This document shows, one piece after another, positions 48,634 through 53,213 of a stretch of DNA of 64,000 nucleotides. The DNA is taken from contig CP069394.1 of the NCBI GenBank assembly GCA_016887485.1, positions 310,001-374,000 of the forward strand. The letters run 5' to 3'. The notes under the pieces were generated by a model. That model saw nothing but the letters and a program-made list of their open reading frames with translations, made no database searches and was not told where the DNA came from. Position 1 is the stretch's first letter; each line of letters starts with the position of its first letter. The DNA comes from Chloroflexota bacterium. GTDB taxonomy: Bacteria; Chloroflexota; Anaerolineae; Anaerolineales; Anaerolineaceae. Both the position numbers and the translations under genes were made by a program.

Positions 48634-50361
48634 TTATAGATTTTCCTGAACGGTATACAGGCGGTGATAGAGACCGTTCCTTGCAATCAGGTCATCGTGT
48701 GATCCCTGCTCGATGATTTGCGTTCCCTCCAAAACTACAATTTTATCTGCATTGCGCACAGTTGAAAGCCGATGAGCGATGATGATGGTTGTCCGACCTG
48801 CCATCAAGCGTTCGAGGGCCTGTTGGATCAGGAGTTCAGTCTCGGTATCCACAGAGGAAGTTGCTTCATCCAGGATCAGAATGGGGGAATCTTTTAGGAT
48901 GGCCCGGGCGATGGAAATGCGTTGGCGCTGACCGCCGGAAAGCTTCACGCCGCGTTCACCAATGAGGGTGTCATAACCATTGGGTAAGTCCATGATGAAA
49001 TCGTGGGCGTTTGCCACCTGCGCTGCATGGATGACATCATCATCCTTGGCAGTGGGGTTGCCAAAAAGGATGTTCTCACGAACGGTGCCGTGGAACAGGA
49101 AAACATCCTGCAGGACGATGCTGATCTTGTTGCGGAGTTGATTGATATCCAGGCTTTGAATATCTACGCCATCCAGTTTGATCGCACCGGAGTTTATATC
49201 ATAGAACCTTGGGATCAGGCTTACGAGGGTGGATTTGCCTACGCCGGTCGGACCGACCAAAGCCACGACATTGGAGGCTGGGATTTCCAGGTTGATATTT
49301 TCAAGAACAGGTTCGCCTTCGATGTAGCTGAAACTGACATTCTCAAGTTGAATAGTCCCTTTGACCGGTTCGGACAGAGCAATGGATTGGCGGGAGCTTT
49401 TGACTTCCGGTTGTTCATCAAGTAGATCTGAAATCCGATCGAAGCCTGCCAGCGATTCCTGAACCTGTTCCCAGGACGTGCCCAGGGCACGGATGGGTTG
49501 GTAGAACATCTCCAGATAGAGGAAGAAAGCAACCAGGTCCGGCACGGATAGGGTGCCCATTAAGGCCATCCGGCCGCCAAAGAAGATCGCGACCAATTGG
49601 CCAATGGAGGTGGAGAAATCTATGAAGGGTTGGAAGACAGCCATCAGCTTGAGGGCTGTCAGCAGGGACACCCGGTAATTCTGAATGCCCTGGTCAACCC
49701 GTTCCAATTGTTCACTTTCCCGGTTGAATGCTTTGATCTCACGGATTCCGGCAAAGCTGTCGTTAAGGACAGCGTTCAGTTCGCCAATCTTGGCCTGCCG
49801 CCTGCGGAAGGCAGGCCGAACAACTTTGGCAAAGCCTACCAAAGCCAGGATGACCAGGGGAATGGGTGCCATGCTATAGAGGGTCAGCTGCCAGTTGAGA
49901 CTTGCCAGGATGGTGGTGATCCCGATGAAGGTGATGATGTTGACTAATACATCTGGAATGGCATGAGAGATCATCCGCTCAAAGAGGTCGGTGTCATTGA
50001 CCACTCGCGACATCAATTGGCCGGTTTGTTTGTCTTCGTAGAAGCGGAGAGAAAGTTTCTGCAGGTGTTCATACACAAATCTGCGGGCATCAGAGACACA
50101 GCCCCAGCCGGCGATATGAGCCATGTATGAGCGTAGAAATTGCATGAACCCGCGGCCGACATAAGCGATCAGAGCGATCAGCGCAAGCCGGGTGACGGTT
50201 TGCATGGTTTCAGTGCTGAGGGATTGGTCTGTAACGAGGCTGACCAGGTTGCGGACTAGCCAGGGAATGAGCAGTTGTGCACCGACGAGGGCCAGGCTTG
50301 CGATGACCGTGATGATCAAAGCCCAGGTATATTTTTTAGCGAAGCGTAGCAGAAGTTTCAT
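48634..50361 (-). CDS. ABC exporter, fused permease-ATPase
   Basis: 575 residues from ATG 50361. Six membrane helices (about 15-310) then an ATPase with Walker A GPTGVGKSTL, Q-loop VLQDVFLF, signature LSGGQRQR, Walker B ILILDEATSSVD and switch His in IIAHRLSTV; all catalytic residues are canonical, so it likely works as a homodimer exporting lipid, peptide or drug. The TTG start at 50397 lies in the -35 box and is excluded; the message appears leaderless. Confidence 0.88.
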   Translation of the reverse strand: MKLLLRFAKKYTWALIITVIASLALVGAQLLIPWLVRNLVSLVTDQSLSTETMQTVTRLALIALIAYVGRGFMQFLRSYMAHIAGWGCVSDARRFVYEHLQKLSLRFYEDKQTGQLMSRVVNDTDLFERMISHAIPDVLVNIITFIGITTILASLNWQLTLYSMAPIPLVILALVGFAKVVRPAFRRRQAKIGELNAVLNDSFAGIREIKAFNRESEQLERVDQGIQNYRVSLLTALKLMAVFQPFIDFSTSIGQLVAIFFGGRMALMGTLSVPDLVAFFLYLEMFYQPIRALGTSWEQVQESLAGFDRISDLLDEQPEVKSSRQSIALSEPVKGTIQLENVSFSYIEGEPVLENINLEIPASNVVALVGPTGVGKSTLVSLIPRFYDINSGAIKLDGVDIQSLDINQLRNKISIVLQDVFLFHGTVRENILFGNPTAKDDDVIHAAQVANAHDFIMDLPNGYDTLIGERGVKLSGGQRQRISIARAILKDSPILILDEATSSVDTETELLIQQALERLMAGRTTIIIAHRLSTVRNADKIVVLEGTQIIEQGSHDDLIARNGLYHRLYTVQENL

Positions 50362-50368
50362 GTCGGAA

Positions 50369-50397
50369 ATTATACGATGTAGGCCAGTAAAAATCAA
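50369..50397 (-). promoter_or_regulatory. Promoter of the homodimer-type ABC exporter
   Basis: TTGATT (50392-50397), 17 bp, TATAAT (50369-50374), with seven bases between the -10 and the ATG at 50361. Confidence 0.65.
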
Positions 50398-50456: not shown

Positions 50457-50573
50457 TGAAAAAACCGCCCAATTTTTTGAGCGGTTTTCCTTGAGAGAGA
50501 AAAATATTGGAGGTTGTAAGAAGAGTTGTATGTTACCGGTTACAATCCATAAAAAGTATTATGGATAAATTGT
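50457..50573 (-). ncRNA. Candidate small RNA, about 117 nt
   Basis: A complete transcription unit without an ORF. It is preceded by TTGACA-17-TATTAT (50580-50608) and ends at the hairpin AAAACCGC/GCGGTTTT (50461-50468 with 50481-50488) followed, on the minus strand, by TTTTTT. Near its 5' end is a hairpin ATCCATAA/TTATGGAT (50545-50552, 50559-50566), then an unpaired ACCTCC (complement of 50509-50513), the anti-Shine-Dalgarno type of seed. Neighbouring genes have their own promoter and terminator, so it is not their leader or tail. No matching RNA family is known to me. Confidence 0.5.
50459..50490 (-). terminator. Terminator of the candidate small RNA
   Basis: 8-bp stem, 12-base loop, U-run of six on the minus strand. 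Confidence 0.75.
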
Positions 50574-50579
50574 ATCTAA

Positions 50580-50608
50580 ATAATACAATATAATCGTAGG
50601 TTTGTCAA
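50580..50608 (-). promoter_or_regulatory. Promoter of the candidate small RNA
   Basis: TTGACA (50603-50608), 17-bp spacer, TATTAT (50580-50585): one of the best promoters in the window, with no gene start within 200 bp. Confidence 0.7.
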
Positions 50609-50610
50609 CA

Positions 50611-50647
50611 CTAAAATAAAAAAGCCTGATGAGTATTCGTCAGGCTT
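50611..50647 (-). terminator. Terminator of the XRE-cupin gene
   Basis: AAGCCTGA/TCAGGCTT stem (50622-50629 with 50640-50647), then TTTTTTATTTT on the minus strand. Confidence 0.8.
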
Positions 50648-50718
50648 CTTGTGCGCTTAGATATAAGACGCGTGAAGCGCCTCAAAAATGTGTGTGAATT
50701 TTTTAGGGCAATCTTGAT

Positions 50719-51318
50719 CTACTCTACGACTTGATAGGAGAGGAGATCACCCTGCAGGTCCAGATGTTGGACGGTGGCAGATGCGACCACGAGCAGCTTG
50801 ACAGCTTTATTGTCATTGGCACTGGAAAGGATCGTGCCTTTGAAACTGGTCAGATGAGCGCTGTCACCTTCATGCAGAAGGAGCGGCTTTTTGTTAGGCA
50901 GGTCCACTTTGAGGGTGCCTTCTTTGACCAACAGGAAAGCCTCACCTTTCTGGATCTGGACGCTTTCATGGTAAGCCGCCGGCGGGATATAGACCAGAAT
51001 GGATTTGAAGGAGAGATTCTCTTCCGGTGAGAGCAGATAGAGGAAGGGCAGGGCGGGGTTGCTGTATTCGCCTAATTGCTCCATCTGACTCTTCCGAACG
51101 ACGAAGGCATCTTCTTCTTCAATGTCCTGGAAAATCTGGAAGAGCCGGACGTTATAGAAGTTTGCCAATTTTTGAAGGTTTTCGACGGAGATTGATGCTT
51201 TATCGCGTTCAATCAGAGAAATGAAAGAGATGGAAAGGTCTGCACCTTCAGCAACTTCATTGAGTTTGAAGCCTCGTTGATGTCTAAGTTCACGTAGTTT
51301 TTGACCGAGAGTAGCCAT
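50719..51318 (-). CDS. XRE-cupin transcriptional regulator
   Basis: 199 residues. Helix-turn-helix at about 8-62 (LNEVAEGADLSISFISLIERDKASISVENL) and a cupin domain from about 100 (YHESVQIQKGEAFLLVKEG, HEGDSAHL). Such regulators sense a small molecule in the cupin pocket and often control amino-acid, sulfur or polyamine genes. ATG 51318 has AAAGGAA. It is divergent from the DtxR-type gene, so either could control the shared region. Confidence 0.85.
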   Translation of the reverse strand: MATLGQKLRELRHQRGFKLNEVAEGADLSISFISLIERDKASISVENLQKLANFYNVRLFQIFQDIEEEDAFVVRKSQMEQLGEYSNPALPFLYLLSPEENLSFKSILVYIPPAAYHESVQIQKGEAFLLVKEGTLKVDLPNKKPLLLHEGDSAHLTSFKGTILSSANDNKAVKLLVVASATVQHLDLQGDLLSYQVVE

Positions 51319-51434: not shown

Positions 51435-51462
51435 TTGACGAACTTCTTAAGAATGATAAAAT
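51435..51462 (+). promoter_or_regulatory. Promoter of the DtxR-type regulator gene
   Basis: TTGACG (51435-51440), 16 bp, TAAAAT (51457-51462). The -10 overlaps the first possible ATG (51461), so translation must start further on. Confidence 0.5.
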
Positions 51463-51496
51463 GATGTCAGTTGTTCCCAGTTCAAGCGATCAAAAG

Positions 51497-52168
51497 ATGA
51501 CCAACGAACGTCCCAGCCCAACAATTGAAGATTATCTGGGTGTGATCTACACCCTGGACCGCAATGGTGACCGAGTGATCTCTGCTCGTTTGGCCCAGTC
51601 ATTGGACGTTTCTGCACCTACGGTTGCGGCCACGCTCAAAAGGATGCAGCGAGATGGCTGGGTGATCCTAGATGACCATAAGGAAATCCAACTAACACCT
51701 TCTGGACGATCAGCGGCAATGAATGTGATTCGCCGTCACATGCTCACAGAGTGGATGCTTTCCAGGATGTTGAAATTGCCTCTGTCGGAGATCCATCGTG
51801 AAGCGCATCAAATTGAGCATACGCTATCTCCTGAAGTTGCAGAACGACTCCAGGCGGAACTGGAAGATCCCCGATTTTGTCCGCATGGCAACCCATTGCC
51901 TGGATTTGAAGATGAAGCTGAAAACTGGGTGCCGCTTTCCAGTTTGGACCCAGGTGAGACGGCGGTTGTCAGGCGGATTCAGGAAAGTCTCGAAGAAGAC
52001 TATGACGTCTTGACTTTCCTTGAGTCAAAAGGAGTGGTTCCCGGTGCGCAATTTGAGGTGATGGAATTGCTGCCCTTTAATGAGACAGTGATGGTTTCAA
52101 TTGAAGGAAATGATGTAATCCTTGGATTGCGATTGGCATCTGAGATTTACGTGAATAAATTGGAGTGA
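51497..52168 (+). CDS. DtxR/MntR-family metal-dependent repressor
   Basis: 223 residues from ATG 51497, which puts the EDYLGVIYTL helix nine residues in, as in the family; starts at 51461/51464 lie in the -10 box. Winged helix at about 20-60 (LAQSLDVSAPTVAATLKRM), dimer domain with metal ligands in HMLTEWML, EAHQIEHTLS and FCPHGNP, and a C-terminal FeoA/SH3-like domain (PGETAVVRRI onwards). It represses iron- or manganese-uptake genes when metal is bound; none is in the window. Confidence 0.88.
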   Translation: MTNERPSPTIEDYLGVIYTLDRNGDRVISARLAQSLDVSAPTVAATLKRMQRDGWVILDDHKEIQLTPSGRSAAMNVIRRHMLTEWMLSRMLKLPLSEIHREAHQIEHTLSPEVAERLQAELEDPRFCPHGNPLPGFEDEAENWVPLSSLDPGETAVVRRIQESLEEDYDVLTFLESKGVVPGAQFEVMELLPFNETVMVSIEGNDVILGLRLASEIYVNKLE

Positions 52169-52421: not shown

Positions 52422-53213
52422 TTAGCTGTTCTGGTGCACCAAATCGTAAAGGCGGGGGACTTGTTCCTTGATGGTGTTCTTGTCTGTCCGCCAGACAAAT
52501 ACATCTCCCACGCCGCCGTATTCAAATGCAACGATGCGGGGCTTTTTCCACTGCCCTGACCGGATTTCATTCAGCGCCCATTCCAGAATTTCCCAGGCGC
52601 CATCTTCCATTCCGAAGTGATCGGTGAGGACGCCGCCAAAGGGGCGGATTCCGGTAATGTGCATTTCCGTCAGGCGGTCAACGGGCAATTGGCGGATATA
52701 TTCCTTGACATCCATCCCGAGGGTATCCGCTGTGATGCGGGCGTGGGCCAAATCCAGCAGGAACTGGCAGTTGGTATCGGCGATCACCTCGGAGAAAGCC
52801 ACAGGGTCCACGGCAGGGGCGATATAGGGGGTTGCCATGGTGAAAGGGTAGTGTTCCAGAACGACTCGATCCGGGCCGAAATGCGCCACCATACTGTTAA
52901 TTTCCTCATGCCATATGTCGTTAACCCTTTGTAGTTCGGTGGGATCCTCAGGCGTGCAACTACGGGGGGTCACCAGGTGGGTGTTCACATGGGGAGTGTC
53001 CGTTTCGGCAATGAATTTATCAATTCGCTCAAAATCCGCTGTGAGGGTATTGCCCAGGCCAGCATCCAGGCTAAAGTGGATGGTGACCGGCCCGTAGGGT
53101 AGCGCTTCTTCGAGCATCCCTTCCCAATCAGGGCATTTGATAAGGTCCACCTGGATCTCTTTGGTTTTAATCAGATTGACCAATGGATTTGAGAAATTGA
53201 CGGCTAATTTCAT
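52422..53213 (-). CDS. DUF692 (MNIO)-like TIM-barrel protein
   Basis: 263 residues from ATG 53213 (GGAG ahead); the frame from 53273 adds an unrelated start. The metal-site pattern of the multinuclear iron oxidase family is visible in order: YGPVTIHFS, VNTHLV, VVLEHYP, FLLDLAHARITA, LTEMHITGIRP, LTDHFGMEDGAWEILEWAL, and a closing VAFEYGG. Characterised relatives oxidise cysteines in small peptides (methanobactin, bufferins) with a partner protein; no partner or Cys-rich peptide is next to this gene. A plain xylose-isomerase-like barrel remains possible. Confidence 0.6.
   Translation of the reverse strand: MKLAVNFSNPLVNLIKTKEIQVDLIKCPDWEGMLEEALPYGPVTIHFSLDAGLGNTLTADFERIDKFIAETDTPHVNTHLVTPRSCTPEDPTELQRVNDIWHEEINSMVAHFGPDRVVLEHYPFTMATPYIAPAVDPVAFSEVIADTNCQFLLDLAHARITADTLGMDVKEYIRQLPVDRLTEMHITGIRPFGGVLTDHFGMEDGAWEILEWALNEIRSGQWKKPRIVAFEYGGVGDVFVWRTDKNTIKEQVPRLYDLVHQNS

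Follow-up and report, generated by a model that had tools for sequence, protein, structure and literature searches.

What is encoded in the gap between an XRE-type regulator gene and an ABC transporter gene, where a promoter and a terminator lie close together with no reading frame between them? We addressed this question in Chloroflexota bacterium GCA_016887485.1, using a 64,000-nt stretch of contig CP069394.1 (positions 310,001–374,000, forward strand), referred to here as the window. The initial annotation had placed at this locus a candidate regulatory RNA, with a near-perfect promoter and a strong terminator enclosing about 117 nt without an ORF, between genes that have signals of their own.

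A promoter-terminator pair between two genes

These elements were all recovered, on the minus strand, which the annotation had left unspecified. The promoter TTGACA-N17-TATTAT (50608–50580) agrees with the consensus at 11 of 12 letters and is followed by a 14-bp hairpin; the enclosed stretch is about 116 nt long, with sense frames of at least 8 codons in some copies and none conserved; and the neighbors carry their own signals, namely a hairpin and T-run after the upstream gene and −35 and −10 boxes before the downstream ATG. The features are listed below, where copies are the intact copies found in the genus (see next section).

50719..51318, minus strand: upstream gene on the same strand, XRE-type HTH regulator of 199 aa (Pfam HTH_3)
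~50619..50650, minus strand: terminator of the XRE gene (hairpin and T-run), between that gene and the small RNA, read directly from the sequence
50603..50608, minus strand: −35 box TTGACA, identical in 12 of 12 intact copies
50580..50585, minus strand: −10 box TATTAT after a 17-nt spacer; 12 of 12 intact copies fit the 17-nt-spacer pattern
50573..50585, minus strand: conserved 13-mer TATTATTTAGATA, the −10 box and discriminator up to the inferred start
50458..50573, minus strand: predicted small RNA of ~116 nt, its start at A50573 inferred from the −10 box
50545..50566, minus strand: 5′ hairpin of 8 bp, from the predicted fold
50509..50514, minus strand: ACCUCC tract, predicted unpaired (mean unpaired probability 0.94 for CCUCC)
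50493..50504, minus strand: pyrimidine tract UUUUUCUCUCUC, the universal open tract, with TTTCTC in 12 of 12 copies
50459..50490, minus strand: intrinsic terminator with a 14-bp stem, an AAAA loop and a T-run overlapping the stem
50369..50397, minus strand: promoter belonging to the downstream ABC transporter gene and not to the RNA (10 of 12 letters; ATG at 50361)

The pairing of promoter and terminator exceeds what chance would produce. Two promoters reach 11 of 12 letters on the two strands of the 64-kb window, and a strong hairpin with a T-run lies 40–200 nt on behind this one only, whereas 30 dinucleotide-preserving shuffles of the window yielded a mean of 0.43 such promoters and zero promoter-terminator pairs under a hairpin rule that was set after the site had been seen and that lets the T-run overlap the stem. 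A stricter terminator scan, in which the T-run must come behind the stem, lists four other terminators (3.6 expected) and omits that of the small RNA because its T-run overlaps the stem; the terminator of the upstream XRE gene (~50650–50619) is likewise absent from this list. The predicted RNA folds at −27 kcal/mol compared to a shuffle mean of −12.2 kcal/mol (z = −5.5; none of 200 shuffles reached this stability), and the copies of nine relatives gave z values of −3.5 to −6.4. Downstream, a TATAAT box ends 7–9 nt before the ATG of the ABC transporter gene in 12 of 12 genomes in which the start was found (G010 and G013 are outside this count), and the transporter mRNA is therefore probably leaderless.

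Conservation of the unit within one genus

A blastn search of 101 genomes placed every match with E < 1e-4 in a single genus, which we call Brevefilum after one named contig (Brevefilum sp. KA23, G011 contig 99); the next match (G021, 2.6e-4) was a terminator-like stretch. A sequence-only model (R1) built from 12 copies was searched against 16 genomes of the genus, returning 12 intact copies (E = 5e-27 to 8e-17). A weak thirteenth, with a degraded promoter, was returned from G005 (2.9e-5). No copy was found by this search in G002, G008 or G013, the last of which is 98% complete and has the XRE gene. A further match (L190, E = 2.9e-5) has the promoter alone in common with the small RNA. Extending the search to 147 genomes of the family (131 outside the genus; E ≤ 0.001), with stricter filters that are able to lose weak matches, gave two weak matches outside the genus, neither convincing: in G026 (L048) a similar −10 and start region precedes a protein gene, and in G169 (L206) only a C/U and terminator-like stretch is shared; in neither was the small-RNA unit recognized. 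Named genomes were also scanned for the promoter pattern, and of at least 118 stretches three reach the score of a full copy (UBA4775, UBA6086 and Brevefilum sp. KA23). These are the same records as G004:C2, G015:C97 and G011:C99 and hence not additional copies, UBA4775 and UBA6086 being Anaerolineaceae records of the same genus group. Elsewhere in the window's genome, no second copy was found above chance.

Conservation is concentrated in the promoter. Mean pairwise identity among the 12 copies is 100% for the −35 box, 95% from the −10 box to the discriminator, 47% for the spacer and 28% for the flanks, the last being chance level in an ungapped comparison of 60 nt on each side. The −35 hexamer and the 17-nt spacing are invariant, variation between the −10 box and the start is confined to three of 13 columns (one differing in two copies, the other two in G014 alone), and the G preceding the −10 box differs in one copy. 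The XRE proteins of the relatives are 61–94% identical to that of the window, so the copies do not come from near-identical strains. The initial annotation had reasoned that promoter boxes varying freely among close relatives would speak against a regulatory RNA; the boxes are near-invariant in 12 copies, and G005 is the only relative in which they are altered. Of the elements whose conservation it had proposed to check, promoter and terminator are kept in 12 copies, but the ACCTCC seed is found in only half of them.

The unit has its own promoter, its own terminator and no conserved ORF, which on sequence evidence are the properties of an intrinsically terminated small RNA, and it is conserved regardless of the downstream gene (12 of 16 genomes intact, one degraded). 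Since the boxes are not free to vary and the layout is kept in 12 members with diverged flanks, a stand-alone small-RNA gene kept across the genus is well supported.

Gene neighborhood

The XRE gene (E ≤ 1e-20) is present in 14 of the 16 genus genomes, the two without it being 71% and 81% complete; a remote relative of 33% identity was found in 1 of 45 other genomes searched. In 13 of the 14 genus genomes with the gene, the small RNA follows it on the same strand; the distance is 66–250 nt for the 12 intact copies, and that in G005 falls inside these limits. The gene after the small RNA, named by eye, encodes an ABC transporter in 8 of 13 cases and others in 5 of 13. The constancy of the XRE linkage, while the downstream gene differs, speaks for a gene of its own that remains next to the regulator gene, and against a leader of the downstream gene.

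Two other genes of the neighborhood were recorded. A DtxR-family regulator with a fused FeoA domain (51461–52168) is divergent from the XRE gene, an arrangement seen in 9 of 12 loci; of the three others, one is cut off before this could be judged. The protein encoded at 52425–53213 is related to the MbnB/TglH/ChrH (MNIO) peptide-modifying enzymes (Pfam PF05114).

Anatomy of the predicted RNA

The layout of a 5′ hairpin, an open pyrimidine tract and a terminator is kept in 12 members of the genus. The 5′ hairpin is predicted in most copies, with differing sequence and length; the terminator is conserved throughout the 12 copies and also in G005. Paired changes occur in the terminator stem (A-T to G-C in G015 and G005; C-G to T-A in G003), as read copy by copy outside RNAalifold. 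RNAalifold itself, applied to the 12-copy alignment, gave only four pairs, near the start and all lacking two-sided changes, a result of the diverging sequences of the 5′ hairpins and of terminators that the alignment does not bring into register. No reading frame shared among the copies was found.

Between the 5′ hairpin and the terminator, the RNA is predicted to be open. TTTCTC is present in 12 of 12 copies and TTTCTCTC in 11 of 12, the tract itself varying (UCUCUCUC in the window, TCTCTCCCT in 7 of 12 copies), and the UUUCUC tract has a mean unpaired probability of 0.93–1.0 in all 12 (taking the N in G007 as A). ACCTCC, which the initial annotation had taken for an anti-Shine-Dalgarno seed, is present and predicted unpaired in the window but is carried by only 6 of the 12 copies; at the corresponding place of the alignment, seven copies have CCTCC, two have TCTCC and three have neither (G015, G012 and G006). 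The letters CTCC stand directly before the tract in 9 of 12 copies, and in two of the three copies without CTCC the letters there are about half paired (0.53–0.54). Because TTTCTC is universal and predicted to be unpaired and ACCTCC is not universal, the open TTTCTC tract appears to be a better candidate for the active part than ACCTCC alone.

Predicted pairing with mRNAs

We compared the predicted pairing of the window's tract with 51 initiation regions of the window, their starts picked by our own rule, and with gene interiors. The tract pairs at a mean of −8.8 kcal/mol with the initiation regions and −7.0 kcal/mol with the interiors (p = 0.0004). Shuffled tracts of the same letters, however, reach −9.1 kcal/mol with the same 51 regions, so that the true tract is no better (p = 0.76) and composition alone accounts for the difference between initiation regions and interiors. 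The complement of the seed (GAGGGAGAGAAA, at most one mismatch) has at least 175 matches in the 16 genomes compared to at least 94 for the reversed pattern, counts to which the small RNAs themselves and numerous sites in coding sequence contribute, while the pattern misses the window's own tract variant. Complement sites were examined at 50 loci (some places appearing under two identifiers) and at a further 40 (L346 without a site), and many proved intragenic. Eight sites with at most one mismatch fall within 16 nt before the ATG of a frame of at least 50 aa, each preceding a different gene as judged by eye, among them one in G007 that we take to be a ribosomal protein L30-like gene; a further site precedes a doubtful TTG frame in G015. 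Across the complement sites that were examined, no target gene recurred between genomes. The XRE mRNA is predicted to pair equally well with the cognate small RNA (−12.85 kcal/mol) and with non-cognate ones (−12.77 kcal/mol). The RNA may block ribosome binding, as the initial annotation proposed; the tract does favor initiation regions over gene interiors, but it pairs with them no better than its shuffles, and the sites examined gave no recurrent target.

No match to Hfq was found in the window's genome (95% complete), compared to matches of the Hfq model in 6 of 14 control genomes. By analogy with characterized small RNAs, the RNA is probably a regulator that pairs with mRNAs.

Sequence elements at the start site

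Conservation continues past the −10 box, which hints at an operator or at a start site of a special type. In the window's genome, the promoter of the small RNA is the single place with TATWATTTAGATA, which 11 of the 12 intact copies match. A search of the genus with the 13-mer returned 14 places in 11 genomes, and 11 of these places are the small RNA; the surroundings of the other three (in G007, G003 and G010) are not small-RNA copies. The 13-mer thus shows no clear sign of being a shared operator. Three genomes, G014 (p = 0.002), G005 (p = 0.014) and G007 (p = 0.022), have a match to the start element in reverse orientation 30 nt ahead of the start codon of the XRE gene; the other 11 of 14, the window included, do not. 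The Fisher values are 0.005 for the XRE genes and 0.43 for 12 ABC controls, although the three positive genomes are not independent, because they have the site at one position and look like one lineage. These matches leave the idea of an XRE operator weakly supported.

Two observations on start regions elsewhere are recorded separately. In G000, a GATAAN3TTATC site (L238) lies 3 nt behind a TATAAT box, a layout like that at the small RNA. The feoA start regions (L298–L308) are near-invariant, with GAGGCTAAATGAA in 10 of 11 loci and GAGGCTTAATGAA in the remaining one, and a TTGAC...AGAAT-like promoter recurs ahead of them; the patterns tried recognized neither a Fur nor a DtxR box.

Proposed mechanism and alternative explanations

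Drawing on sequence, prediction and conservation, we propose that a sigma-70-type RNA polymerase would start near A50573 and stop at the hairpin at 50490–50459, giving an RNA of ~116 nt. This RNA would consist of the 5′ hairpin, an unpaired C/U-rich stretch (ACCUCC...UUUUUCUCUCUC) and the terminator. The open C/U tract may base-pair with a small number of mRNAs at purine-rich ribosome-binding sites and reduce their translation independently of Hfq, in the way known from C-rich small RNAs of Firmicutes. Synthesis may be controlled through the conserved discriminator and start region, for which the XRE regulator would be the nearest candidate. With slightly better than even confidence, we regard the locus as encoding a trans-acting, Hfq-free C/U-rich small RNA that would work like RoxS/RsaE or IsrR and constitute a new, genus-restricted example. 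Against this reading stand the pairing results above, the variation of the tract, the loss of CUCC before it in 3 of 12 copies and the lack of a copy in G013. A broader proposal, in which the genus-wide Hfq-free C/U-tract RNA and the XRE regulator make up a two-part module, the regulator acting via the start-site element and the RNA retuning translation of a set of mRNAs, is possible but doubtful.

The small RNA could instead be real and act by binding a protein, for example with the pyrimidine tract as the site of an RNA-binding protein. The open tract that is conserved consists of a plain C/U repeat whose mRNA pairing is no better than that of shuffles, no recurrent target emerged among the examined sites and the 5′ hairpin changes freely in sequence, all of which fit such a role; yet Hfq was not found in the window's genome, no protein partner is known here, and 9 of 12 copies have CTCC just ahead of the tract, which anti-Shine-Dalgarno pairing would require. 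We consider protein binding unlikely. An iron-sparing RNA under Fur or iron control, a counterpart of RyhB, FsrA or IsrR, would be repressed through a GATA-N5-TRTC dyad around the start. The alignment does retain GATA-N5-T(A/G)TC in 11 of 12 copies, the perfect site GATAAN3TTATC occurs at 23 places compared to 4 for the reversed pattern in four genomes (G000, G009, G010 and G012), the window's genome has three FUR-family genes, and nearby there is a gene of DtxR type that includes a FeoA domain. However, neither the strict nor the relaxed site is present in any of 12 FeoB_N loci (11 with the upstream region read) or of three FUR-family gene loci, and the 23 dyad sites precede genes without an evident iron role or fall inside genes, which makes iron control improbable.

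Reading the unit as a leader or attenuator, whose hairpin would end transcription unless a signal permits read-through, draws on the same-strand ABC transporter gene that comes next in the window and in several relatives. The next gene differs among genomes, however, the ABC start, where that gene comes next, lies ~250–350 nt behind the small-RNA promoter with a TATAAT box of its own, as described above, and the minimum-energy folds show the terminator; a leader is thus very improbable. Still less credit is due to a remnant, the promoter and terminator of a lost gene: although the G005 copy is degraded and G013 has none, promoter, spacing and C/U tract are near-invariant in 12 copies despite randomized flanks, and we give this explanation almost no weight. 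A short translated gene for a small protein is the least credible alternative. A sense frame opens from a TTG near +6 in some copies (18 codons in G004 and G007), but in G010, G014 and G015 it is missing or broken off after a few codons, a loss by which the coding interpretation appears largely refuted, and it would lie too close to the inferred 5′ end for a ribosome site. The pairing small RNA remains our preferred reading of the locus.

Comparison with known small RNAs

At this place, the Rfam search of the window gave no family at the gathering threshold. A permissive search with 301 bases produced five weak matches far below threshold (RcsR1 at 21.5 bits, gathering threshold 60), and RsaE was not among the five. 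A limited literature search found no published work on small RNAs of Anaerolineaceae, a lineage reported to be abundant in anaerobic digesters and little cultured (PMC5481317). If transcribed, the RNA would be a conserved riboregulator of a digester lineage, in a genome without detectable Hfq, and the linked XRE regulator gene suggests where the signal for it might be sought.

Trans-acting small RNAs of Hfq-containing bacteria combine a seed with an intrinsic terminator. The present RNA has the same layout, in a genome without an Hfq match, and several Firmicutes small RNAs of the C-rich type do without Hfq. RoxS and RsaE, of Bacillus and Staphylococcus, carry a UCCC loop motif, whereas the tract described here is a CU repeat; no Rex-like site was seen by eye at the small RNA, and the RNA differs further in its lack of an Rfam match and in its phylum. 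IsrR, FsrA and RyhB offer a second comparison. The study of IsrR reports that most predicted sites are at ribosome-binding sites and that the RNA is Fur-controlled (PMC11257911); the Brevefilum RNA would likewise be a compact RNA acting on ribosome sites, with a dyad at its start site, but a Fur-like operator is unsupported at the iron genes of Brevefilum. RoxS is described as having C-rich regions able to pair with G-rich mRNA target sites (PMC5419742): the RNA of this locus would, in the same way, be a C-rich small RNA that pairs with G-rich sites on mRNAs.
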